Below, one piece after another: positions 7,776 to 16,395 of a stretch of DNA of 23,096 bases. The notes under the pieces are model-generated. The model saw nothing but the letters and a program-made list of their open reading frames with translations. It did no database searches and was not told the DNA's origin. The stretch spans positions 1 to 23,096 of IMG/VR virus record IMGVR_UViG_3300009156_000087; one strand, written 5' to 3'. A program made the position numbers and the translations under genes. Within the stretch, counting starts at the first letter, position 1; each line of letters starts with the position of its first letter. This DNA comes from a virus.

Positions 7776-7849
7776 GGTGTCTGATGGGATTCGAACCCAC
7801 GAGTACTGGCACCACAAGCCAGCGCATAATGCCTTCCTGCTTCAGACAC
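7776..7849 (-). tRNA. tRNA-His (GTG)
   Basis: Anticodon loop TTGTGGT, perfect GTGTCTG/CAGACAC acceptor and C73. The base before position 1 is T, so the G-1 usual for bacterial His tRNAs is not encoded. Confidence 0.9.
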
Positions 7850-7851
7850 AG

Positions 7852-7909
7852 TGGACCTGGCGGGACTCGAACCCGCATCACGCGTTCGCCTACCTTTAGC
7901 TACAGGCCC
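7852..7909 (-). pseudogene. 58-nt tRNA remnant lacking a normal anticodon arm
   Basis: The acceptor (GGGCCTG/CAGGTCC, A73) and T-arm (GCGGG/CCCGC around TTCGAGT) are intact. Only 26 nt join them and no 5-bp anticodon stem with a 7-nt loop can be drawn. It is either a deletion product or a minimal tRNA-like RNA. It sits 2 nt after tRNA-His in the array. Confidence 0.7.
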
Positions 7910-8122: not shown

Positions 8123-8299
8123 TAAGCGATTCAACGCAGCACGGTTACGCTCGCTGGCCTCGCGCATCATCTGCTTCGCCTTGTGCACGGGCGGCTCGGC
8201 ATAGAACCAGCAGTAGTTGTACTGCCAGCATTTGCGAGGCCCCCGGCACGGCGGGTGGATGCACAGCCGTGCCGGTTCAATCGTCTTGATGCTTTTCAC
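8114..8299 (-). CDS. Small Cys-rich protein (61 aa)
   Basis: Contains LCIHPPCRGPRKCWQYNYCWFY, with four cysteines that could bind a metal, then a basic helix ending RNRAALNRLGG. The GTG at 8299 has no clear ribosome site but lies inside the 3' end of the upstream gene, so coupling is likely. The last 9 nt overlap tRNA-Ser. No family recognised. Confidence 0.6.
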   Translation of the reverse strand: MKSIKTIEPARLCIHPPCRGPRKCWQYNYCWFYAEPPVHKAKQMMREASERNRAALNRLGG

Positions 8300-8483
8300 A
8301 ACGGTAGTCGTTCGTCTCGAATCGCAGGCACCATTTGTGCCAGCACAAGCGCCAATTGGGGAACCTGGTGTTGAACGCTACCTTCACATTCCATGTTCGG
8401 CGCAGCTCCTCCGGGTAGCAGCCGTAACGCTGCTTGAAACCCATATATTGGTGCATGAGGGCTTTACGTAGGTTGTCGTCCAC
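8277..8483 (-). CDS. Hypothetical protein starting right after tRNA-Gln
   Basis: 68 residues from the GTG at 8483 (VDDNLRKALMHQYMGF...). The body is Trp/Arg-rich (NWRLCWHKWCLRFETNDYRCEKH) with Cys and His that could bind a metal. The GTG lies one nt beyond the discriminator base of tRNA-Gln (CTG), so RNase cleavage there would leave an mRNA with a single-base leader. Starting earlier would place the N-terminus inside the tRNA. Confidence 0.6.
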   Translation of the reverse strand: MDDNLRKALMHQYMGFKQRYGCYPEELRRTWNVKVAFNTRFPNWRLCWHKWCLRFETNDYRCEKHQDD

Positions 8484-8484
8484 G

Positions 8485-8555
8485 CTCCAGATCGAAGATT
8501 CGAACTCCAATTTCCGGGTTCAGAGCCCGGCGTCTTACCATTAGACGAATCTGGA
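8485..8555 (-). tRNA. tRNA-Gln (CTG)
   Basis: Anticodon loop CTCTGAA, acceptor TCCAGAT/ATCTGGA with the T1:A72 pair typical of Gln tRNAs, and G73. Confidence 0.92.
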
Positions 8556-8567
8556 CTGCGCCATCTG

Positions 8568-9197
8568 CTACCCCAGCAGAGCCGCGTCGGTCACGGTGTA
8601 GGAACCCCGCGAGATCCAGACGTACCCGGTGGTTTTGTTGCGTTTGATCTGGAACATCGTCGACTTGTTCACGTCAGTTCCGAATCCGCTGACCGACCCC
8701 GCGAACGCCATGATCGGGTTGTTCCACTGGTCGCACAGCTGAGCCACAGCCTGCGTGCCAGTGAAGTTGTTCTTCACGGCCCGCCAGGCGAAGTTGACGA
8801 GCGGGACACCACGATCGTTGTTCTGGATGCGCATGTTCGCGAACTGCTGGGAGTTGGCGAATAGCGAGTCTTTGGCGCTGTCGGAGACGTAGACCGTAGT
8901 GAAGCCAACGGTCCTGATGATGTTGTCGCCGCATGAGATTGCGATGACGGAAGAGTCTTCGATCTTCTCGCCCTTCTTGTTGTACCGATCGAACATGGTG
9001 TCGCGCTGGAAGTCCAGGCTGCGGCAGTGTACTTCGTATACCAGTTGACCGTCTGTGCCGAAGTTGTAGATCGTGCCCGGCGACGCGCCCAGTGCCCTCA
9101 TCGCGTCGGCGATGGCGTTGTCAAACGCGGAACAGCCCGGCAGCGCTACCGCGATGACCAGTGCGAGGCAGATGAGTCGTGCGAAACGTTTGTACAT
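8568..9197 (-). CDS. Exported lipoprotein, unknown function
   Basis: 209 residues from the ATG at 9197, which follows GGGGAGGAC. The signal peptide (LICLALVIAVALPGC) ends with a lipobox LPGC at Cys22. The mature part is beta-rich with scattered cysteines (EVHCRSLDF, ISCGDN, AQLCDQW) and many Asn residues near the C-terminus. It is the second lipoprotein of the array after the SPFH protein. Surface display or superinfection exclusion is possible but only by analogy. Confidence 0.82.
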   Translation of the reverse strand: MYKRFARLICLALVIAVALPGCSAFDNAIADAMRALGASPGTIYNFGTDGQLVYEVHCRSLDFQRDTMFDRYNKKGEKIEDSSVIAISCGDNIIRTVGFTTVYVSDSAKDSLFANSQQFANMRIQNNDRGVPLVNFAWRAVKNNFTGTQAVAQLCDQWNNPIMAFAGSVSGFGTDVNKSTMFQIKRNKTTGYVWISRGSYTVTDAALLG

Positions 9198-9238
9198 CTT
9201 AGTCCTCCCCGGACGATTTAAACTATGTGGGTTATGCG

Positions 9239-9309
9239 CCTCGGGGCAGAGATTCGAACTCCAATTACCGGAACCAAAATCCGGTGGCCTGCCGTTAGCC
9301 GAACCCGAG
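9239..9309 (-). tRNA. tRNA-Gln (TTG)
   Basis: Anticodon loop TTTTGGT, T-loop TTCGAAT, acceptor CTCGGGT/CCCCGAG with a single 7-66 mismatch, G73. It starts one nt after the ACCA end of the 154-nt tRNA-like RNA. Confidence 0.88.
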
Positions 9310-9310
9310 T

Positions 9311-9464
9311 TGGTGGGGGACTGGGACTCGAACCCAGCTCTCAACAACCTTTTTATCGCATATGGCGCTAGCGGCCGGCAGCGGCGGCGAGGCGGATCCC
9401 AACCTACGCCCAGTTGTTGCGCATCAAGCGCAGACCAGGTCGGCGCCCCCGACGCTTTCCCCCA
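9311..9464 (-). ncRNA. 154-nt tRNA-like RNA with a tmRNA-like outline
   Basis: A perfect T-arm (CTGGG, loop TTCGAGT, CCCAG) is followed by TCCCCC and ACCA. The matching 5' acceptor strand TGGGGGA is found 135-140 nt upstream, right after tRNA-Asn. No normal anticodon arm fits between. A 7-bp helix (CAACAAC/GTTGTTG) can take the place of the tmRNA P2 helix, ending 4 nt before the T-stem. Stop codons inside one frame bracket VGIRLAAAAGR and, before it, MRNNWA. tmRNAs are normally longer and carry the G3.U70 pair; here pair 3-70 is G:C. A tRNA with a large insertion is the alternative. Confidence 0.5.
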
Positions 9465-9465
9465 G

Positions 9466-9537
9466 CTGGTCACCCCAGATTCGAACTGGGATCCCCCGGA
9501 TTAACAGTCCAGTGCTTTGCCGTTAAGCTAGCGACCA
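9466..9537 (-). tRNA. tRNA-Asn (GTT)
   Basis: Anticodon loop CTGTTAA, T1:A72, acceptor TGGTCGC/GTGACCA with one G.U, G73. All stems form. Confidence 0.92.
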
Positions 9538-9541
9538 TCAG

Positions 9542-9614
9542 CGCCACCGGCAGGATTCGAACCCGCATCTTCCCGCTTTGGAGGCGGGCGCTCTACCAAT
9601 TGAGCTACGTTGAC
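9542..9614 (-). tRNA. tRNA-Trp (CCA)
   Basis: Anticodon loop CTCCAAA and G73 as expected for Trp. The acceptor GTCAACG/CGGTGGC has one A5 x G68 mismatch and one wobble. Confidence 0.9.
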
Positions 9615-9624
9615 AGCCCCCCGT

Positions 9625-9810
9625 TTACAAATCGAACTCGCCATTCAATACCCCGGCGACGAAAAGTTTCCATTCAGCCGGGGTGAATGTCAATACGAGC
9701 TCAGGCAAGTCGGACTGCCGCATCATCACGTTACCTTCGGGCAGCGAGGCGACCTCCGCGCAACCGTTAGAGTCGCAGAAGCTGGACTTGCGCCACACCA
9801 GATCCTTCAT
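9625..9810 (-). CDS. DUF397 family protein
   Basis: 61 residues, full length for DUF397: WRKSSFC near the N-terminus, CAEVASLPEGNVMMRQSD in the middle, and FTPAEWKLFVAGVLNGEFDL at the end. In actinobacteria DUF397 proteins usually sit beside an XRE-type regulator and are linked to development and signalling; no XRE gene is seen in this window. The ATG at 9810 has AGGGA at close spacing and also TAAGGT 7 nt upstream. It follows the vWA gene by 5 bp on the same strand. Confidence 0.85.
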   Translation of the reverse strand: MKDLVWRKSSFCDSNGCAEVASLPEGNVMMRQSDLPELVLTFTPAEWKLFVAGVLNGEFDL

Positions 9811-9815
9811 CGTCC

Positions 9816-10832
9816 CTACCTTAGAATCAGAAGTTTCGTGCCTGGCACCAGCTTACGGTTCACCGACGTTGATTGCACGAACACTTCGAACTCCGGGTTG
9901 TGCTCAGGCCTGACCCGGATCTCCGTATCAGGCAGGCCCAGAACAGCCCGCGCGTTGGCGCCCGAGAACACCAGACCTGTCCTCTTGTTGCGCACCAGGA
10001 TGTCTTTGCGCGCCTGGATCAGTTCGGTCTTGGTGAGCTGGTAGTAGGCGCTACCCATCTGATATGTGAGGCCGCGTGCTTCCACCCATTCCCGGATCGG
10101 CCACGACTGGTCGACGTCCAGGAGGAAGAATTGGCCCGCCTGCAGTGGCTTCAAGTCGGCCTTCACCAGCGCCGCCGTGTTCAGCGTGTCGGTGCCCATG
10201 GAGAACAGGTTGCGGGTGCCACGGAACGTGCCAGTGGACCGCGCGGTCATGTAGTTGTCCACGGCCCTGCGGATCGTTTCACCCGCCTCGGTCACGCCCT
10301 GGACGGTGTTGGCGTCCCAGATCGCGATGTTGTCAGCGGGGAACCCGAAGTTCTTCGCCTCGAACTTGCCCCGCTGATCCGGCACAAGCACCGCCACGGT
10401 CCAGTTGGACGCCTGCCCGCCTAGTAGCCGCGTCAACGCCGCAGGGGTCTGCTTGGACTCGTTCTCCTCCCCGTCGGTGACGACGAAGGTCAGGAATGCG
10501 TGGTCGCCGTAGATGGTGGACGTCGTGGCAAGATCCTGCTGGGACTTGATCGTCGCGTCGATTAAAGCGGTGCGACCGGTGGTGCCGTACAGGCCGGCGA
10601 TCGATGGTAGACGCAGCACGTCCTTGTCGAAGATCAGGCACCGCACGGTGTTGTTGAAGGTGTACACCGACACGCGTGTTTCCTGGTCGCGTTCTTTGGA
10701 GCGTTTCGCGAGGTAAGAGATCTGCCCGTCAACGACTTTGACCACGTCACGAGCCAGATGCGCCATCGACGACGAAGCGTCCACGACCACAGCAATATGG
10801 TTGATGAAGTTCTGTTTCACTACCTGCAACAC
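9816..10832 (-). CDS. von Willebrand factor A domain protein
   Basis: 338 residues. A complete MIDAS metal site is visible: D-x-S-x-S at 18-22 (DASSS), Thr at about 88 in TTGRTAL, and Asp at 120 in VVTDGEEN. The vWA fold spans about 10-190. The C-terminal half contains a GTFRGTRNLFSMG segment and a long basic region without a known motif. vWA domains bind proteins through a metal ion; the partner is unknown. The GTG at 10832 has no Shine-Dalgarno but TATGGT ends 6 nt upstream, so a leaderless mRNA is likely; a GTG four codons later is an alternative. Confidence 0.88.
   Translation of the reverse strand: MLQVVKQNFINHIAVVVDASSSMAHLARDVVKVVDGQISYLAKRSKERDQETRVSVYTFNNTVRCLIFDKDVLRLPSIAGLYGTTGRTALIDATIKSQQDLATTSTIYGDHAFLTFVVTDGEENESKQTPAALTRLLGGQASNWTVAVLVPDQRGKFEAKNFGFPADNIAIWDANTVQGVTEAGETIRRAVDNYMTARSTGTFRGTRNLFSMGTDTLNTAALVKADLKPLQAGQFFLLDVDQSWPIREWVEARGLTYQMGSAYYQLTKTELIQARKDILVRNKRTGLVFSGANARAVLGLPDTEIRVRPEHNPEFEVFVQSTSVNRKLVPGTKLLILR
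9818..9823 (-). promoter_or_regulatory. Candidate -10 before the DUF397 gene
   Basis: TAAGGT (TANNNT) ends 7 nt before the ATG at 9810. It overlaps the end of the vWA gene and a weak ribosome site, so either initiation mode is possible. Confidence 0.3.
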
Positions 10833-10838
10833 ATAATG

Positions 10839-10844
10839 ACCATA
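10839..10844 (-). promoter_or_regulatory. -10 box of the vWA gene, probable leaderless transcript
   Basis: TATGGT on the minus strand ends 6 nt before the GTG at 10832; no ribosome site lies between. Confidence 0.42.
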
Positions 10845-10863
10845 GGCACGGGGTGTGACATTC

Positions 10864-11427
10864 TCACGGCAGCGAATCCACCAGCGCTCTGAGCTGCTGA
10901 TACGCGACCGGCCTGTAGTCCCACACGTCGACGCCGACGTTGACCTGCCGCCCGTTGACCTTCCACGCCTCGTGTACGTGTCCGTGGATCAGCGCGTTGA
11001 AGCCGGCCTGCAGTTTCGGTCGGTGCGCTGTGTAACGGTCGAAGTCGTGGCTGTCGCCGGCCTCGGGGAAGTGACACAGCAGCCAGTCGCCGTAGACGTG
11101 CTGACCTTCCAACACGGTGAACCCGACACGTTCGTACAACGCGACACTTTGTGGCCCGGCTTTACGGTGACCCCGCCAGCATTTGTCGTGGTTGCCAGGC
11201 ACCAGGAACTTCGTGCCGTTGAGCAGTTGCACCAGCGGCAGGGTGTCGGCCAGCCGGCCCATCGCCACATCACCCAGGACGTAGACAACATCTTCGTCGC
11301 CCACGGCGCTGTTCCAGTTGTCGACCAACGCCGCGTTCATCTCTTGCACGTCGGCGTATGGCCGGTTGCAGTGGTCGATGATGTTGGCGTGGCCGAAGTG
11401 CAGGTCCGACGTGAACCAAACGTTCAT
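10864..11427 (-). CDS. Calcineurin-like metallophosphoesterase
   Basis: 187 residues with all metal-binding motifs of the family: DLHFGH (8-13), GDV (52-54), GNHD (78-81), LCHFPE with His118, and GHVH (149-152). It should hydrolyse phosphomono- or diesters; the substrate may be RNA or cyclic-phosphate ends given the tRNA context, which is inference. The ATG at 11427 (MNVWFTSDLH is a normal start for the family) lies one nt after the discriminator of the upstream tRNA, leaving no room for a ribosome site outside the tRNA. Confidence 0.9.
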   Translation of the reverse strand: MNVWFTSDLHFGHANIIDHCNRPYADVQEMNAALVDNWNSAVGDEDVVYVLGDVAMGRLADTLPLVQLLNGTKFLVPGNHDKCWRGHRKAGPQSVALYERVGFTVLEGQHVYGDWLLCHFPEAGDSHDFDRYTAHRPKLQAGFNALIHGHVHEAWKVNGRQVNVGVDVWDYRPVAYQQLRALVDSLP

Positions 11428-11428
11428 G

Positions 11429-11502
11429 TACCCCGGGAGGGACTCGAACCCCCAACCTTCTGATCCTAAATCAGACGCCGCTGCCAATTAGGCTACCGGG
11501 GC
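11429..11502 (-). tRNA. tRNA with TAG anticodon (Leu), short variable loop
   Basis: Clean cloverleaf with anticodon loop TTTAGGA (UAG, Leu CUA codons), acceptor GCCCCGG/CCGGGGT and A73. The variable loop has only 5 nt, whereas bacterial Leu tRNAs have a long one. The amino acid is therefore assigned by anticodon only. Confidence 0.8.
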
Positions 11503-11659
11503 CTGACCTCACCCTCCGGGGTACATGCGCACACGTGTGTCTCACTGGCTCTCAGGTGGTGCGCCTGGAGCTGACATGGACCGGAAGGTGAAGCCACTGT
11601 CCTCGCGGATACAGCATCTGCCGTCGCATCCCCGCGTCCGGGGCCAACATTGCAGACCG
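11503..11659 (-). other. 157-nt tRNA spacer with hairpins
   Basis: No gene or tRNA seen. It holds the palindrome CACACGTGTG (11530-11539), a CTCAGG...CCTGGAG hairpin near 11560-11580 and a GCGGAT...ATCCCCGC pairing near 11606-11635. CCCCG-CGT-CCGGGG lies close to tRNA-Gly. Confidence 0.4.
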
Positions 11660-11730
11660 AGCGTGATACCAGAGTCGAACTGGTGGCTCCTACTTGGAAG
11701 GAAGGTGTGTTACCGCTACACCAATCACGC
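11660..11730 (-). tRNA. tRNA-Gly (TCC)
   Basis: Anticodon loop CTTCCAA, perfect GCGTGAT/ATCACGC acceptor, U73 typical of Gly. One T30 x T40 mismatch in the anticodon stem. Confidence 0.9.
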
Positions 11731-11746
11731 GATTTGCAGGCCGTAG

Positions 11747-12109
11747 TTATGCGCTGGCCCCAACGGGTTCAGCGGATTCAGCGAGCACCGCAACCCATGC
11801 CGCCGTCAACGCCCGCGTCCGCGCGGCTTGAGGGTCATCTTCGTCGCTGCTGTCATCGTCGTCGAGTTCCGGCTCAGCGAACCCGGCCGCCTCGGCGAAC
11901 TTTTCGCAGATGCCCAACCTTTCCTTGCCCCGATGATAGTCGCCGAAGATCTGACCGAGGACGCAATCGGTGCTGTCGTTCAGGTCGATACGTCCCGGCG
12001 CGAGCAAGTTGCGCCAGTCGCTGGGGCCGTTGGCCTCAAGGAACTTGATACCTTCGCGCACACGCGGTTTGAACGGTTCGATGTCCGGGGTGGGGCAGTG
12101 TTTGCACAT
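11747..12109 (-). CDS. Small acidic protein, paralogue of the gene at 12481
   Basis: 120 residues. The core VREGIKFLEANGPSDWRNLL, DSTDCVLGQIFGDY matches the gene at 12481 (VREGIAYLDA, CVLGQLYGSY). An N-terminal CKHC and a strongly acidic stretch (LDDDDSSDEDDP) are specific to this copy. GAGGAG precedes the ATG. The two copies sit in the same tRNA array with tRNAs between them, which suggests duplication. Function unknown. Confidence 0.78.
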   Translation of the reverse strand: MCKHCPTPDIEPFKPRVREGIKFLEANGPSDWRNLLAPGRIDLNDSTDCVLGQIFGDYHRGKERLGICEKFAEAAGFAEPELDDDDSSDEDDPQAARTRALTAAWVAVLAESAEPVGASA

Positions 12110-12136
12110 GGGTTTCTCCTCTTGTGTGGGTTTGCG

Positions 12137-12207
12137 AGCATCACGCCAGAATCGAACTGGCTCCGCAACCTTGGCAAGGTGGCATGCGGCCTTTACAACA
12201 GTGATGC
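12137..12207 (-). tRNA. tRNA-Gly (GCC)
   Basis: Anticodon loop TTGCCAA, perfect GCATCAC/GTGATGC acceptor, T-loop TTCGATT, U73. D-stem is weak. Confidence 0.9.
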
Positions 12208-12215
12208 GCGGTGAC

Positions 12216-12309
12216 GGGGGCGGGACACTTTCAACCAGCCGGATGGCGAGTCAGATGGTTGTTGTGACAAAGGAGGAACTTCCTGGTGAGGAAGGACTAT
12301 CCCGCCCCC
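12216..12309 (-). ncRNA. Structured spacer RNA, three-way junction
   Basis: Fills the gap between tRNA-Asp and tRNA-Gly. A perfect 10-bp stem (GGGGGCGGGA/TCCCGCCCCC, extended by a U.G) closes two hairpins: CTTCCT-CACC-AGGAAG, and CAACCA...TGGTTG with an inner GCC/GGC. Between them the single-stranded part of the minus-strand RNA reads TTCCTCCTTTGTCA, containing CCTCCTTT, the same as the anti-Shine-Dalgarno 3' end of 16S rRNA. No promoter seen; it would be cut from the array with the tRNAs. Confidence 0.55.
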
Positions 12310-12311
12310 AG

Positions 12312-12384
12312 CGAACCGTACGGGTCTCGAACCCGTGGCCTTCGGATCGACAGTCCGATGCTCTGACCCCTGAGCTAACGGTCC
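12312..12384 (-). tRNA. tRNA-Asp (GTC)
   Basis: Anticodon loop CTGTCGA, TCGGA/TCCGA stem, GGACCGT/ACGGTTC acceptor, G73 as expected for Asp. Confidence 0.93.
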
Positions 12385-12394
12385 ACGAACCACC

Positions 12395-12484
12395 TTATAT
12401 TCCCAGCGCTCGCGCGGCAATCGCCAACGCGATGAACACCAGGAAGAAGATGATCCAAAATCGGGTGTACCGCTTACGTGTCAC
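12395..12484 (-). CDS. Tiny membrane protein (29 aa)
   Basis: Begins VTRKRYTRF and continues as one hydrophobic helix (WIIFFLVFIALAIAA) ending RALGI. The GTG overlaps the stop of the upstream gene (GTGA), so translation is probably coupled. It is one of four one-helix mini-proteins in the array. Function unknown. Confidence 0.65.
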   Translation of the reverse strand: MTRKRYTRFWIIFFLVFIALAIAARALGI

Positions 12485-12837
12485 ACCAACACCGGAGCCA
12501 TGATCTGCTTCCACGTCTGTGTCAGCAGCTCGTAGCGACGCTCCCATTCCCGGTCTGCCCCTTCGAGTCCTTCGAACTCGTGCGCAGGCGGTGTGATCCA
12601 ACACGTATGGAAGCGGCAAAACCCTAACGACGACGGCAAGGTTGTGTGCACGTCGATCCCCTCGATCCCCAGCTTCATCAGGCCCAACCCGTAGGAGCCG
12701 TACAGTTGGCCGAGAACGCACAACTGTTCATTGCGCATGTCCAGCATGTCCCAGTTGACCGCTCGACGCCAGCTGTGGTCGTTGCATGCGTCCAGGTAGG
12801 CGATACCCTCGCGAACTTGTTCCTCTGCGTACAACAC
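12481..12837 (-). CDS. Small protein, paralogue of the gene at 11747
   Basis: 118 residues from the GTG at 12837, chosen for AAGGGGAG just upstream; longer readings would cross two tRNA genes. The core VREGIAYLDACNDHSWRRAV, QLCVLGQLYGSY matches the gene at 11747. The C-terminal half has FCRFHTCW and a Trp/Glu-rich helix. Overlaps the tiny membrane-protein gene by 4 bp. Confidence 0.8.
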   Translation of the reverse strand: MLYAEEQVREGIAYLDACNDHSWRRAVNWDMLDMRNEQLCVLGQLYGSYGLGLMKLGIEGIDVHTTLPSSLGFCRFHTCWITPPAHEFEGLEGADREWERRYELLTQTWKQIMAPVLV

Positions 12838-12864
12838 GTTCTCCCCTTTGCTCGATTCTGTGCG

Positions 12865-12938
12865 TGACGCGTACGGGGATCGAACCCGTGACCTGAAGTT
12901 TGAAGGACTTCTATGCTTACCAGCTACACCAACGCGCC
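12865..12938 (-). tRNA. tRNA-Glu (TTC), with C33
   Basis: Well-paired cloverleaf (GGCGCGT/ACGCGTC acceptor, GAAGT/ACTTC anticodon stem). The loop is CCTTCAA, so position 33 is C in place of the near-universal U. Discriminator A. Confidence 0.82.
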
Positions 12939-12942
12939 AATG

Positions 12943-13017
12943 TCGCCACGTGAGGATTTGAACCTCAAACCTTCCGCTTATCAGACGGATGCTCAAACCA
13001 AGGCGAGCTCCGTGGCG
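12943..13017 (-). tRNA. tRNA-Ile (GAT)
   Basis: Anticodon loop CTGATAA, perfect CGCCACG/CGTGGCG acceptor, T-loop TTCAAAT, A73. Shares its acceptor sequence with tRNA-Ile (TAT). Confidence 0.93.
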
Positions 13018-13025
13018 TCCCCCTT

Positions 13026-13838
13026 TTACTGCTTACTCATCAACGCCTTCACCTGCGCCGAAGTTTCGCGCTGACGGCGAAGCGTCGACTCGTAATCCTT
13101 GAACCGGGCCTTCACCACAAGCGAACGCGCCCATGAACGCAGCACCACACCCTCCGGCGCACCGCTGCCACCCGGCGACAGTTTCGCCTGCGACTGCGGC
13201 AAGATGGTCTTCATCCACCCCAGCGTCCCCGCAAGCGTTGTCGGCAGCCGGTCACCAAGCTCGACACACACACGCGGTGTCAGCTCTAGTCCCGTTTGCT
13301 GCGCGAAGCGCACAAGGCCAGGTTCGGCGTAGAACTGCTGGCCGCGATGCTCACGCCACAACGCGATCTGATCGCGTTCCCAGCCCATGATCTCAAGCCA
13401 GTTCTCGACCGTCATCACATCAAAGACGCGGAACCCGCCGACTTCTTTGCGGCTGGTGTAGTTACCCCACGGCCCGTTGCCGATGCCATACACCTCCCCG
13501 AACACCACCTTGATGTTGTCGCGCTGCGGACCGGACAGCCGGTCGGCGATGTATTTCAAAGTGGCGACGATGCCATGCGCCGGGTTTTCGATCAGGTCGC
13601 CCTGGCCGTACAGCAGCGTGTCGCGGGAACCGAGGATGTAATTGCCTTCCGGCATGATGATGATGCGGGCGTTGACCCCGTCGATTTTTTCCGTCACCAC
13701 GACGGTACCGGTGAATGTGGTGACGTCGTCCTCCAGCAGCATCCCGTTCTGGCCCATGCCGTGGTATGTCTCGATCGACGGATATTTCGTCATCGAATCC
13801 AACTTGGACAGACCTTCGTTACTCCACCGTTGTGTCAA
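13026..13838 (-). CDS. RNA ligase (Rnl2-like)
   Basis: 270 residues from a TTG start that has GAGGGAGG 7 nt upstream; an earlier GTG would lie inside tRNA-Ile (TAT). Nucleotidyltransferase motifs are all visible: TEKIDG with the adenylated Lys at about 51, VFGEVYG (113-119), GFRVFDV (135-141), PEGVVLR (228-234) and VVKARF (241-246). Such enzymes join RNA ends and, in T4, repair tRNAs cut by host anticodon nucleases. Its place in the middle of the tRNA array, beside anomalous tRNAs, fits tRNA repair or tRNA end joining. Confidence 0.92.
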   Translation of the reverse strand: MTQRWSNEGLSKLDSMTKYPSIETYHGMGQNGMLLEDDVTTFTGTVVVTEKIDGVNARIIIMPEGNYILGSRDTLLYGQGDLIENPAHGIVATLKYIADRLSGPQRDNIKVVFGEVYGIGNGPWGNYTSRKEVGGFRVFDVMTVENWLEIMGWERDQIALWREHRGQQFYAEPGLVRFAQQTGLELTPRVCVELGDRLPTTLAGTLGWMKTILPQSQAKLSPGGSGAPEGVVLRSWARSLVVKARFKDYESTLRRQRETSAQVKALMSKQ

Positions 13839-13858
13839 GTGTTTTCCTCCCTCGGTTG

Positions 13859-13935
13859 TCGCCACGGCAGGATTTGAACCTGCGCATCACCCGCTTATAA
13901 GACGAGCGCTATTAACCAGACTTAGCTACGTGGCG
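13859..13935 (-). tRNA. tRNA-Ile (TAT)
   Basis: Anticodon loop CTTATAA reads AUA directly, without the lysidine-modified CAU used by most bacteria. Acceptor CGCCACG/CGTGGCG as in tRNA-Ile (GAT). Its first 24 nt overlap the 3' end of the upstream gene. Confidence 0.92.
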
Positions 13936-14193
13936 CGGCTTACCATGCGTGACACAGCGCTTATCCGATTCGATGATGTGCCACGAAACCCCGCCGGCCT
14001 CACCCTCGTACACGGAAGCCCAGTCACAAGTGCAGTTGTGCTTGGCGCTGTTATGATCGCGGGCTTCGCTGCGGGCCTGCGGCTGCGCCGCGAAGTTGCC
14101 TTTACGGTTGCAGGCCAGACACCGCCAAAAGTAAGGCCCCGGGCCGTACCACGAAAACGGCGGGTGCCCGTACAGTTCAACAGTTGCTGCCAT
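13912..14193 (-). CDS. Cys/His-rich hypothetical protein starting right after tRNA-Val
   Basis: 93 residues with WRCLACNRKGNF, then HNSAKHNCTCDW and a final KRCVTHGKPRH, enough Cys/His for one or two zinc sites. The ATG lies one nt after the discriminator of tRNA-Val (GAC), with no ribosome site outside the tRNA. The last 24 nt are inside tRNA-Ile (TAT), so the mRNA and both tRNAs compete for the same precursor. No family recognised. Confidence 0.68.
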   Translation of the reverse strand: MAATVELYGHPPFSWYGPGPYFWRCLACNRKGNFAAQPQARSEARDHNSAKHNCTCDWASVYEGEAGGVSWHIIESDKRCVTHGKPRHVAKSG

Positions 14194-14194
14194 G

Positions 14195-14266
14195 TGGTCC
14201 CAGGTAGGATCGAACTACCGGCCTCCACCTTGTCATGGTGGCGCTCTTCCACTGAGCTACGAGACC
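14195..14266 (-). tRNA. tRNA-Val (GAC)
   Basis: Anticodon loop ATGACAA, GCTC/GAGC D-stem, acceptor GGTCTCG/TGGGACC with two wobbles, A73. Confidence 0.92.
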
Positions 14267-14986: not shown

Positions 14987-15059
14987 TACCCCCGGAAGGA
15001 TTTGAACCTTCGACCTACCGATTAAGAGTCGGCGGCTCTGGCCTCTGAGCTACGGAGGT
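14987..15059 (-). tRNA. tRNA-Lys (CTT)
   Basis: Anticodon loop CTCTTAA, acceptor ACCTCCG/CGGGGGT, A73. Its first 45 nt overlap the 3' end of the upstream gene on the same strand. Confidence 0.92.
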
Positions 15060-15650
15060 AGGCTTTTTACGCTTGTAACCGTTGGCTTTCACGTAGGCTT
15101 CCCATTCTCTCTTGTAGTCGCGGCGCCGCTGCAAACACAACTCACATTTGCAATCTTTGACACCGCGTGTCCCCTCCCCGTGCTGCGTCTTGCTTCGAAG
15201 CTCCATAGGCTGGCCGGCAGCGATCTTCGCCTGACGCGCCAAATGCCATTGCGCCTTATACTCCCTGCGTTTGGCTAGGCAAAGTTCGCAGCTGCATCCT
15301 CGGATGCCTGCCGACCCGCCACCATGGACGGTGATCTTCTGCGCGCCGTGGGCGCGCGTCGGTACCGGCCAGCCCTGGTCGCGGCATTTCTTGACAAAGT
15401 TGGAGATGTAGCTGCGGTTCAGGCCAAGCTCATTAGCGATTTCGATCTGCGTCATGCCTTTGCTGAACCGCTCGCAGTATTGCCTGTAGCGCACCGCGAG
15501 CGGTACACCCTTCTTCGGTTTAATGACACCGTCGGCGATGAGCAGCGCGCGGCATGACGGGCAGTACGGCCAACTCTTGTGTTTCTTACGTGTCTTGCAT
15601 CGGATGCATGTTTGATCGGGTGCGTGTTGGTAACGTGCTTTCGGCGGCAT
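15015..15650 (-). CDS. Zinc-finger/HTH protein with two CxCxxC repeats
   Basis: 211 residues. An N-terminal zinc finger (C15-x2-C18, C30-x2-C33) is followed by a helix-turn-helix (TQIEIANELGLNRSYISNF, 67-85) and two copies of an HG...GCSCELCL / HG...CKCELCL element (about 109-128 and 157-176), each followed by a basic helix. The same element ends the HNH protein at 5397. It probably binds DNA. The last ~15 residues are encoded by the tRNA-Lys gene. The ATG follows the upstream tRNA-Arg by 5 nt (CCATC), so a ribosome site would have to lie in the tRNA. Confidence 0.85.
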   Translation of the reverse strand: MPPKARYQHAPDQTCIRCKTRKKHKSWPYCPSCRALLIADGVIKPKKGVPLAVRYRQYCERFSKGMTQIEIANELGLNRSYISNFVKKCRDQGWPVPTRAHGAQKITVHGGGSAGIRGCSCELCLAKRREYKAQWHLARQAKIAAGQPMELRSKTQHGEGTRGVKDCKCELCLQRRRDYKREWEAYVKANGYKRKKPTSVAQRPEPPTLNR

Positions 15651-15655
15651 GATGG

Positions 15656-15727
15656 TGTCCCTGACCAGAGTCGAACTGGCAACCTTCGGCTTCGGAGACC
15701 GACGCTCCTCCATTGAGCTTCAGAGAC
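15656..15727 (-). tRNA. tRNA-Arg (CCG)
   Basis: Anticodon loop CTCCGAA, TCGGT/GCCGA stem, GTCTCTG/CAGGGAC acceptor, A73 followed by an encoded CCA. Confidence 0.92.
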
Positions 15728-16323: not shown

Positions 16324-16395
16324 GGGGCACGCCAGGGGTCGAACCTGGATCTTCGGTTCCGCCGAATGCTCTGCCTTTTGAGCTACGTACGTCCC
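16324..16395 (-). pseudogene. Defective tRNA with a 5-nt anticodon loop
   Basis: The T-arm (CCAGG/CCTGG) and D-arm (GCTC/GAGC) are sound. The anticodon stem TTCGG/CCGAA encloses only CGGAA, the variable loop has 3 nt, and the acceptor GGGACG/CGTGCCC needs a bulge. A two-base loss from a CTCGGAA loop (Pro CGG) would explain the loop; that is a guess. Confidence 0.65.

Follow-up and report, generated by a model that had tools for sequence, protein, structure and literature searches.

Start codons one base behind tRNA genes: candidate tRNA-punctuated leaderless genes in an actinophage-like contig, with a parallel at glmU of Microbacterium

Introduction

How does a ribosome find a start codon that lies a single base behind a tRNA gene? 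The question is raised by a stretch of 23,096 bases from an IMG/VR virus record, here called the window. It contains 31 tRNAs by ARAGORN, nearly all of them on the minus strand, and its terminase, portal and head genes are found at the right end. At three places in the array the last tRNA base, the discriminator (D), is followed by one C and then by GTG, ATG and ATG, respectively, as judged by Infernal and ARAGORN. The number of bases that separate D from the start codon is called n in the following; these three genes thus have n=1.

Junctions in the window

The positions of D were taken from ARAGORN and, independently, from Infernal with RF00005. The two methods agree at 8485, 11429 and 14195, which confirms the three junctions reported in a first-pass annotation of this DNA, the starts being at 8483 (GTG), 11427 and 14193 (both ATG). 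All features are compiled in Table 1.

Table 1. tRNAs and adjoining reading frames in the window
Feature	Position	Strand	Remarks
tRNA-Gln(ctg), body to D	8485..8555	-	C74 at 8484; ARAGORN, Infernal
68-aa ORF, n=1 after tRNA-Gln	8277..8483	-	GTG at 8483-8481; no homologue found
tRNA-Leu(tag)	11429..11502	-	C74 at 11428; ARAGORN, Infernal
Metallophosphoesterase, 187 aa, n=1 after tRNA-Leu	10864..11427	-	ATG at 11427-11425; conserved N-terminus
tRNA-Val(gac)	14195..14266	-	C74 at 14194; ARAGORN, Infernal
93-aa ORF, n=1 after tRNA-Val	13912..14193	-	ATG at 14193-14191
tRNA-Arg(ccg), CCA encoded	15653..15727	-	D at 15656; ARAGORN, Infernal
211-aa HTH/HNH-like ORF	15015..15650	-	ATG 5 nt after D, 2 nt after CCA
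Contrast: RNA ligase gene, 20 nt after tRNA-Ile	13026..13838	-	TTG start; ribosome site GAGGGAGGAAAA in spacer
Contrast: ORF 27 nt after tRNA-Glu(ttc)	12481..12837	-	AAAGGGGAG in spacer
Contrast: ORF 27 nt after tRNA-Gly(gcc)	11747..12109	-	AGAGGAG in spacer

The three genes are not equally well founded. The 187-aa protein matches PHROG 547 (E 2e-49) and Pfam Metallophos, both from residue 1, and its start is therefore as secure as had been claimed. For the 68- and 93-aa frames, family and phage searches yielded neither a family match nor a phage homologue; they are supported by their length, by a third-position GC of 0.70 and 0.69, and by the n=1 pattern itself. In the surrounding region scanned, the 93-aa frame has no alternative in-frame start. 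The gene at 15650 had been listed as a fourth case. Its ATG indeed begins 5 nt after D, but the tRNA encodes its CCA, and the gene does not fit the class of +1 leaderless genes.

Only a minority of the window's tRNAs encode a full CCA, and nearly every one has a C after D, as is also the case in related phages. Of the 27 CCA-less tRNAs in the window, 3 have an RTG at n=1 that opens a frame of 60 codons or more, whereas the other offsets have about 0.18 each (P ~9e-4). The other genes behind tRNAs of the array start at n=20-39, with visible ribosome sites upstream.

A DNA search revealed no near relative of the window in the phage collection. The best phage matches of the protein encoded at 9816-10832 are in the Mycobacterium phages Phabba and Myrna, those of the metallophosphoesterase in Streptomyces phages; such relatives make an actinobacterial host likely. 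Closest to the window is another contig, L008, with synteny across the tRNA array.

Excess of start codons at n=1 in actinophages

tRNA regions were fetched from ten Stanwilliamsviridae, from Myrna, Phabba, Satis, Kela, Forza and Sixama, and from two IMG/VR contigs. The sample, from 19 actinophage records, comprised 398 non-redundant tRNAs in which a C, but not the full CCA, follows D. ATG or GTG frames of at least 60 codons start 26 times at n=1, as compared with 1.6 times per offset at n=2-12. If each protein family is counted once, 20 are at n=1 against 1.55 per offset. The excess persists when the window is removed (17 versus 1.36), when the ten Stanwilliamsviridae are (8 versus 0.91) and when both are (5 versus 0.73). 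The n=1 junctions are not due to chance, and they are not limited to the window. Myrna, Phabba, Satis and Kela, however, show no peak at n=1 (0 families in 72 tRNAs); the use of the arrangement is therefore lineage-dependent.

The peak is also selective for the start codon. Frames of at least 60 codons open at n=1 with ATG 17 times, with GTG 9 times and with TTG twice, the latter being the background level. No n=1 peak was seen in this sample for frames opening with TTG, ATA/ATC/ATT or CTG; ATG makes up 24 of the 26 ATN triplets at that offset. A slight excess of GTA/GTC/GTT frames (5 versus 1.8) is explained by GT being common there. The mix of start codons comes close to that of leaderless mRNAs in Propionibacterium acnes, for which PMC3848588 gives 68, 29 and 3% for ATG, GTG and TTG.

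Phage genomes are compact, of course, and unrelated genes do adjoin tRNAs. Genes might simply crowd the tRNAs, and the spacing would then be functionally meaningless. Compaction alone, however, predicts n=1-10 to be used alike and with any start codon. What is seen is a bimodal distribution of first starts: 26 lie at n=1, n=2-10 forms a trough with roughly one start at each position, and a broad second mode spans n=21-25; a peak of TTG is missing. Nor does compaction explain expression without a Shine-Dalgarno (SD) site or the placement of glmU throughout the genus Microbacterium (see below). We rate it as highly improbable.

The earlier statement was that the n=1 genes have no room for a ribosome site outside the mature tRNA. 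In the wider sample, SD-like pairing of -5 kcal/mol or stronger is found in 4% of the n=1 genes and in 50% of genes at n=12-40. Where no gene starts at n=1, 10% of the tRNA ends reach this strength. A ribosome site could still be hidden in the tRNA itself, if the uncleaved tRNA-mRNA were translated and the G-rich acceptor strand (GGGG, GGAG) served as SD site. The 3' strands of acceptors are in fact often G-rich; the tRNA-Gln of Microbacterium, for instance, ends with GGCGGAGC. Yet the tRNAs at n=1 junctions are no more SD-like than other tRNAs of these regions (means -1.57 and -1.88, P 0.46), the spacing of 1-4 nt is too short, and the site would be base-paired in the folded tRNA. Such a site should, moreover, favour n=4-8, precisely where the trough is observed. 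This explanation is very unlikely.

Alternatively, a promoter within the tRNA gene could give rise to an ordinary leaderless transcript. A -10 box of the form TANNNT is typical of actinobacterial promoters, and it is common in these bacteria for a leaderless transcript to start at a promoter (PMC3848588). TANNNT was present at the expected place upstream of none of the 26 n=1 starts, and the sequence of acceptor and T-arm is under tRNA constraint. We give a promoter inside the tRNA hardly any credit.

Conservation and change of form

Whether relatives keep the 1-nt spacing had been proposed as a check of the pattern. Orthologues do so, despite near-saturating synonymous change. In the family of frames behind tRNA-Leu(gag), n=1 is found in five phages with differing acceptor stems; pS is 0.6-0.9 and dN/dS 0.04-0.19, i.e., the family is under purifying selection. 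An endonuclease behind tRNA-Gln(ttg) starts with GTG at n=1 in both TunaTartare and Byblos, and in the frame behind tRNA-Phe GTG and ATG are swapped at the identical position. In Daubenski and TunaTartare the phage annotators had independently set coding starts at n=1.

One and the same gene can also adopt two forms. The frame behind tRNA-Ser(tga) is at n=1 and devoid of an SD site in TunaTartare, Sham and Faust; Comrade, Gilson, Jada, Annadreamy and Beuffert have it at n=20-22, preceded by AAGGAG. In L008 an 82-aa frame occupies n=1 after tRNA-Leu, and its stop overlaps the start of the metallophosphoesterase (TGATGATG). The window lacks this frame, and the metallophosphoesterase takes the n=1 place after tRNA-Leu.

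A possible mechanism: the tRNA-finishing cut as the start of a message

The idea that leaderless mRNAs are made by tRNA 3' processing has strong, though indirect, evidence in its favour: the n=1 peak is sharp and confined to ATG and GTG, SD sites are missing, the junction is conserved in orthologues, and the same gene occurs in two forms. In detail, the tRNA and the downstream gene would be co-transcribed as one RNA, and the enzyme that forms the 3' end of the tRNA would cut one nucleotide past D, i.e., behind the encoded C74. The freed tRNA would end with D-C and have its tail completed by the CCA-adding enzyme. The downstream RNA would begin with AUG or GUG and carry a 5' monophosphate, and actinobacterial ribosomes, which initiate at +1 AUG/GUG ends without an SD site, may translate it.

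The individual steps have precedents in actinobacteria. In Streptomyces coelicolor most of the tRNAs that encode CCA are cut between the two Cs, according to Romero et al. (2014, PMC4681348); for CCA-less tRNAs the same paper places the cuts only within a few nucleotides downstream of the 3' end. A cut between the Cs of CCA is also described for P. acnes by Lin et al. (2013, PMC3848588), whose method clones 5'-phosphate but not 5'-hydroxyl ends. If the cut were the same on CCA-less precursors, in which RTG directly follows D-C, the product would start exactly at AUG or GUG. In mycobacteria an RTG at +1 is necessary and sufficient for leaderless initiation, positions +2 to +5 being weaker (Shell et al. 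2015, PMC4633059). Taken together, a cut after C74 and initiation at a +1 RTG would explain why the starts lie at n=1, why they are ATG or GTG, why SD sites are missing and why a C is encoded almost universally. This C is present after D in all tRNAs examined in two host chromosomes (38/38 and 42/42, i.e., 80 tRNAs). We consider it rather probable that the n=1 genes of the window are tRNA-punctuated leaderless genes, with the cut after C74 freeing an mRNA that starts at +1 with AUG or GUG.

The original proposal differed in the position of the cut. RNase Z would cleave right after D and leave C-AUG or C-GUG, a message with a 1-nt leader. Its general part, leaderless mRNAs arising by tRNA processing, agrees with the indirect evidence given above; its particular 5' end fares less well. 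RNase Z usually cuts just past the discriminator, as stated for Gram-positive bacteria (PMC10673834), and a tRNase Z homologue is present in S. coelicolor (PMC4681348). Nearly all tRNAs have a C after D, and a cut after D therefore cannot be told from one after C74 by the sequence pattern itself. The cuts mapped in two actinobacteria, however, fall between the Cs, and in M. tuberculosis RTG is far more enriched at +1 than at +2 to +5 and yields more N-terminal peptides (PMC4633059). P. acnes has no obvious tRNase Z (PMC3848588), and to name RNase Z is therefore premature. A cut directly behind D thus appears doubtful; the mRNA probably starts at +1 with AUG or GUG rather than with C-AUG.

Bacterial chromosomes

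The junction is not a peculiarity of phages: it recurs at glmU of Microbacterium and at three genes of Ca. Planktophila. Bacterial genomes were scanned for a T-arm pattern followed by D-C-ATG. In Microbacterium 73 out of 79 genomes had a match, nearly all with the ending of tRNA-Gln. At the loci inspected, glmU opens at n=1 after tRNA-Gln, and the length of its N-terminus varies.

In Microbacteriaceae glmU adopts either of two forms. It starts at n=1 (with ATG, once with GTG) or at n=22-91, then usually behind a strong SD site; the latter range holds for most Microbacteriaceae outside Microbacterium. No clear case was seen within this family at n=2-21, and two others lie further off. The initiating Met is typically the same in both forms, 10 codons upstream of a LAAG motif. 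At the level of the order, the glmU search pattern was too strict.

In Ca. Planktophila versatilis 3 of the 38 tRNAs have a D-C-start junction. The genes behind them, named from their N-termini, are presumably a peptidyl-prolyl isomerase, leuS (with GTG) and a response regulator. The tRNA-Gln-glmU pair of this organism has n=16 and an SD site. Streptomyces was discarded as a further example: 45 D-C-RTG matches in 61 chromosomes are not evidently above chance, and the long frames that follow them mean little, because these genomes are so GC-rich.

We find it somewhat better than an even bet that in bacteria and their phages alike tRNA 3' maturation at position 74 makes translatable +1 AUG/GUG mRNAs, for phage genes as well as for glmU of Microbacterium, and that such starts are exchanged in evolution with SD-led ones.

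Relation to known systems and possible significance

Neither leaderless translation nor tRNA punctuation is new in itself; the new part would be their combination in phages and bacteria. In agreement with the earlier remark that tRNA-punctuated leaderless genes of phages are undescribed, we found no account of the two combined, be it for phages or for bacteria, in the open literature, outside of which most subscription journals lie. The papers listed there for tRNA punctuation deal with mitochondria or touch on the term only in passing.

In mitochondria, too, genes adjoin tRNAs with almost no spacer, and excision of the tRNAs yields mRNA 5' ends that have little leader or none. In contrast, the junctions discussed here occur in phages and bacterial chromosomes, concern a minority of genes, share a cluster with SD-led genes and would owe their spacing to the encoded C74. 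Most genes of the window are not delimited by tRNAs: 3 of about 30 tRNAs are involved, and most other spacers have at least 20 nt and SD sites.

The leaderless mRNAs that promoters make in mycobacteria, P. acnes and S. coelicolor likewise start with AUG or GUG and lack an SD site, and the +1 position is probably shared as well. Here, however, the 5' end would result from RNA cleavage, a -10 box is missing and a 5' monophosphate is predicted. The MazF-made leaderless mRNAs of E. coli, as outlined in PMC3848588, also arise by an endonuclease acting after transcription, but MazF leaves a 5' hydroxyl and acts under stress, whereas the source here would be constitutive tRNA maturation. The inter-C cut of S. 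coelicolor and P. acnes belongs to the same host group, and its site, 74/75, is where the start codon of the phage genes begins; in the available parts of those reports the cut is not linked to downstream genes.

glmU, which encodes an enzyme of cell-wall precursor synthesis, is essential in bacteria. Should the proposed mechanism hold, its expression would be tied to tRNA processing across the genus Microbacterium. Actinobacterial tRNA maturation would then also control the make-up of the mRNA pool: a message would start with the very cut that completes a tRNA. Phages could express genes within dense tRNA arrays without spacers. An arrangement so far described for mitochondria would extend to bacteria. 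The reason for the encoded C74 in almost every CCA-less actinobacterial tRNA would become directly testable, and annotators would gain a start-codon rule for genes behind tRNAs.

Other viruses and minor observations

A universal viral rule was considered and dropped. Viral contigs taken as a whole show no enrichment of CATG at n=1 (6 matches versus about 6 per offset), and at other CCA-less viral tRNAs the n=1 excess is at most weak (2 versus 0.27 and 0 versus 0.45). One sample of CCA-less viral tRNAs gave 4 versus 0.73 at n=1, but it was biased towards the pattern.

Two side observations may be added. Junctions with n=1 are present in some AT-rich phages. Long frames at n=1, release-factor-2-like and YvcK-like ones, were seen in candidate CPR bacteria.

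Degenerate tRNAs before conserved starts

The single C between the discriminator base (D) and the ATG start codon (n = 1) persists in Sham, TunaTartare and Faust behind a tRNA-Phe(gaa) in which the elbow motifs G18G19 and TTCGA are gone. Its T-loop reads TGCGTTA; the cloverleaf and the anticodon are retained. ARAGORN does not detect this tRNA, and the Infernal model RF00005 scores it at 40.7 bits. Within the fetched regions it is the sole tRNA-Phe(gaa) seen in the three phages.

In Jada, Gilson and Comrade, what lies at the usual spacing upstream of the Leu(gag)-type ORF appears to be only the 3' half of a tRNA, i.e., T-arm and acceptor strand; the T-arm scores 13.8 bits with RF00005. This element is perhaps a relic retained as a cutting signal.

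Location of degenerate and additional tRNA-like elements (L-numbers, fetched phage loci)
Element	Location	Strand	Remarks
tRNA-Phe(gaa)	L236:13595-13666; counterparts in L231, L225		Sham, TunaTartare, Faust
Apparent tRNA 3' half	L242:18957-19051; counterparts in L228, L219		Jada, Gilson, Comrade
Short tRNA-like element	window 7849-7909	-	directly before tRNA-His
Extra tRNA match	window 12943-13017	-	53.5 bits; undetected by ARAGORN
Extra tRNA match	window 16327-16390	-	31.2 bits; undetected by ARAGORN

Further RNA-like elements in the window

The short element before tRNA-His apparently lacks the anticodon arm; the same stretch gives a weak full-length tmRNA match (28.1 bits, under the cut-off). 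The higher-scoring extra match reads, by eye, as tRNA-Ile(gat). Positions 17235-17298 (-) weakly match the Y RNA-like YrlA (35.6 bits versus a cut-off of 69). In the annotations of Sixama and Daubenski, genes for Ro-like proteins adjoin tRNA arrays.

Similar junctions elsewhere

In Microbacterium genomes (e.g., L524), tRNA-Gln, one base and the glmU start follow each other across the genus; in most other Microbacteriaceae (loci L639-L675) a Shine-Dalgarno site usually precedes the glmU start. Several CPR genomes (Patescibacteria contigs L321, L324, L312, L289) have tRNAs followed at n = 1 by long frames, among them apparent release factor 2 and YvcK genes. AT-rich phages (viral contigs L381, L390/L415, L429/L437; GC content 0.29-0.38) carry D-C-ATG junctions that open long frames, some of them homologous between contigs.
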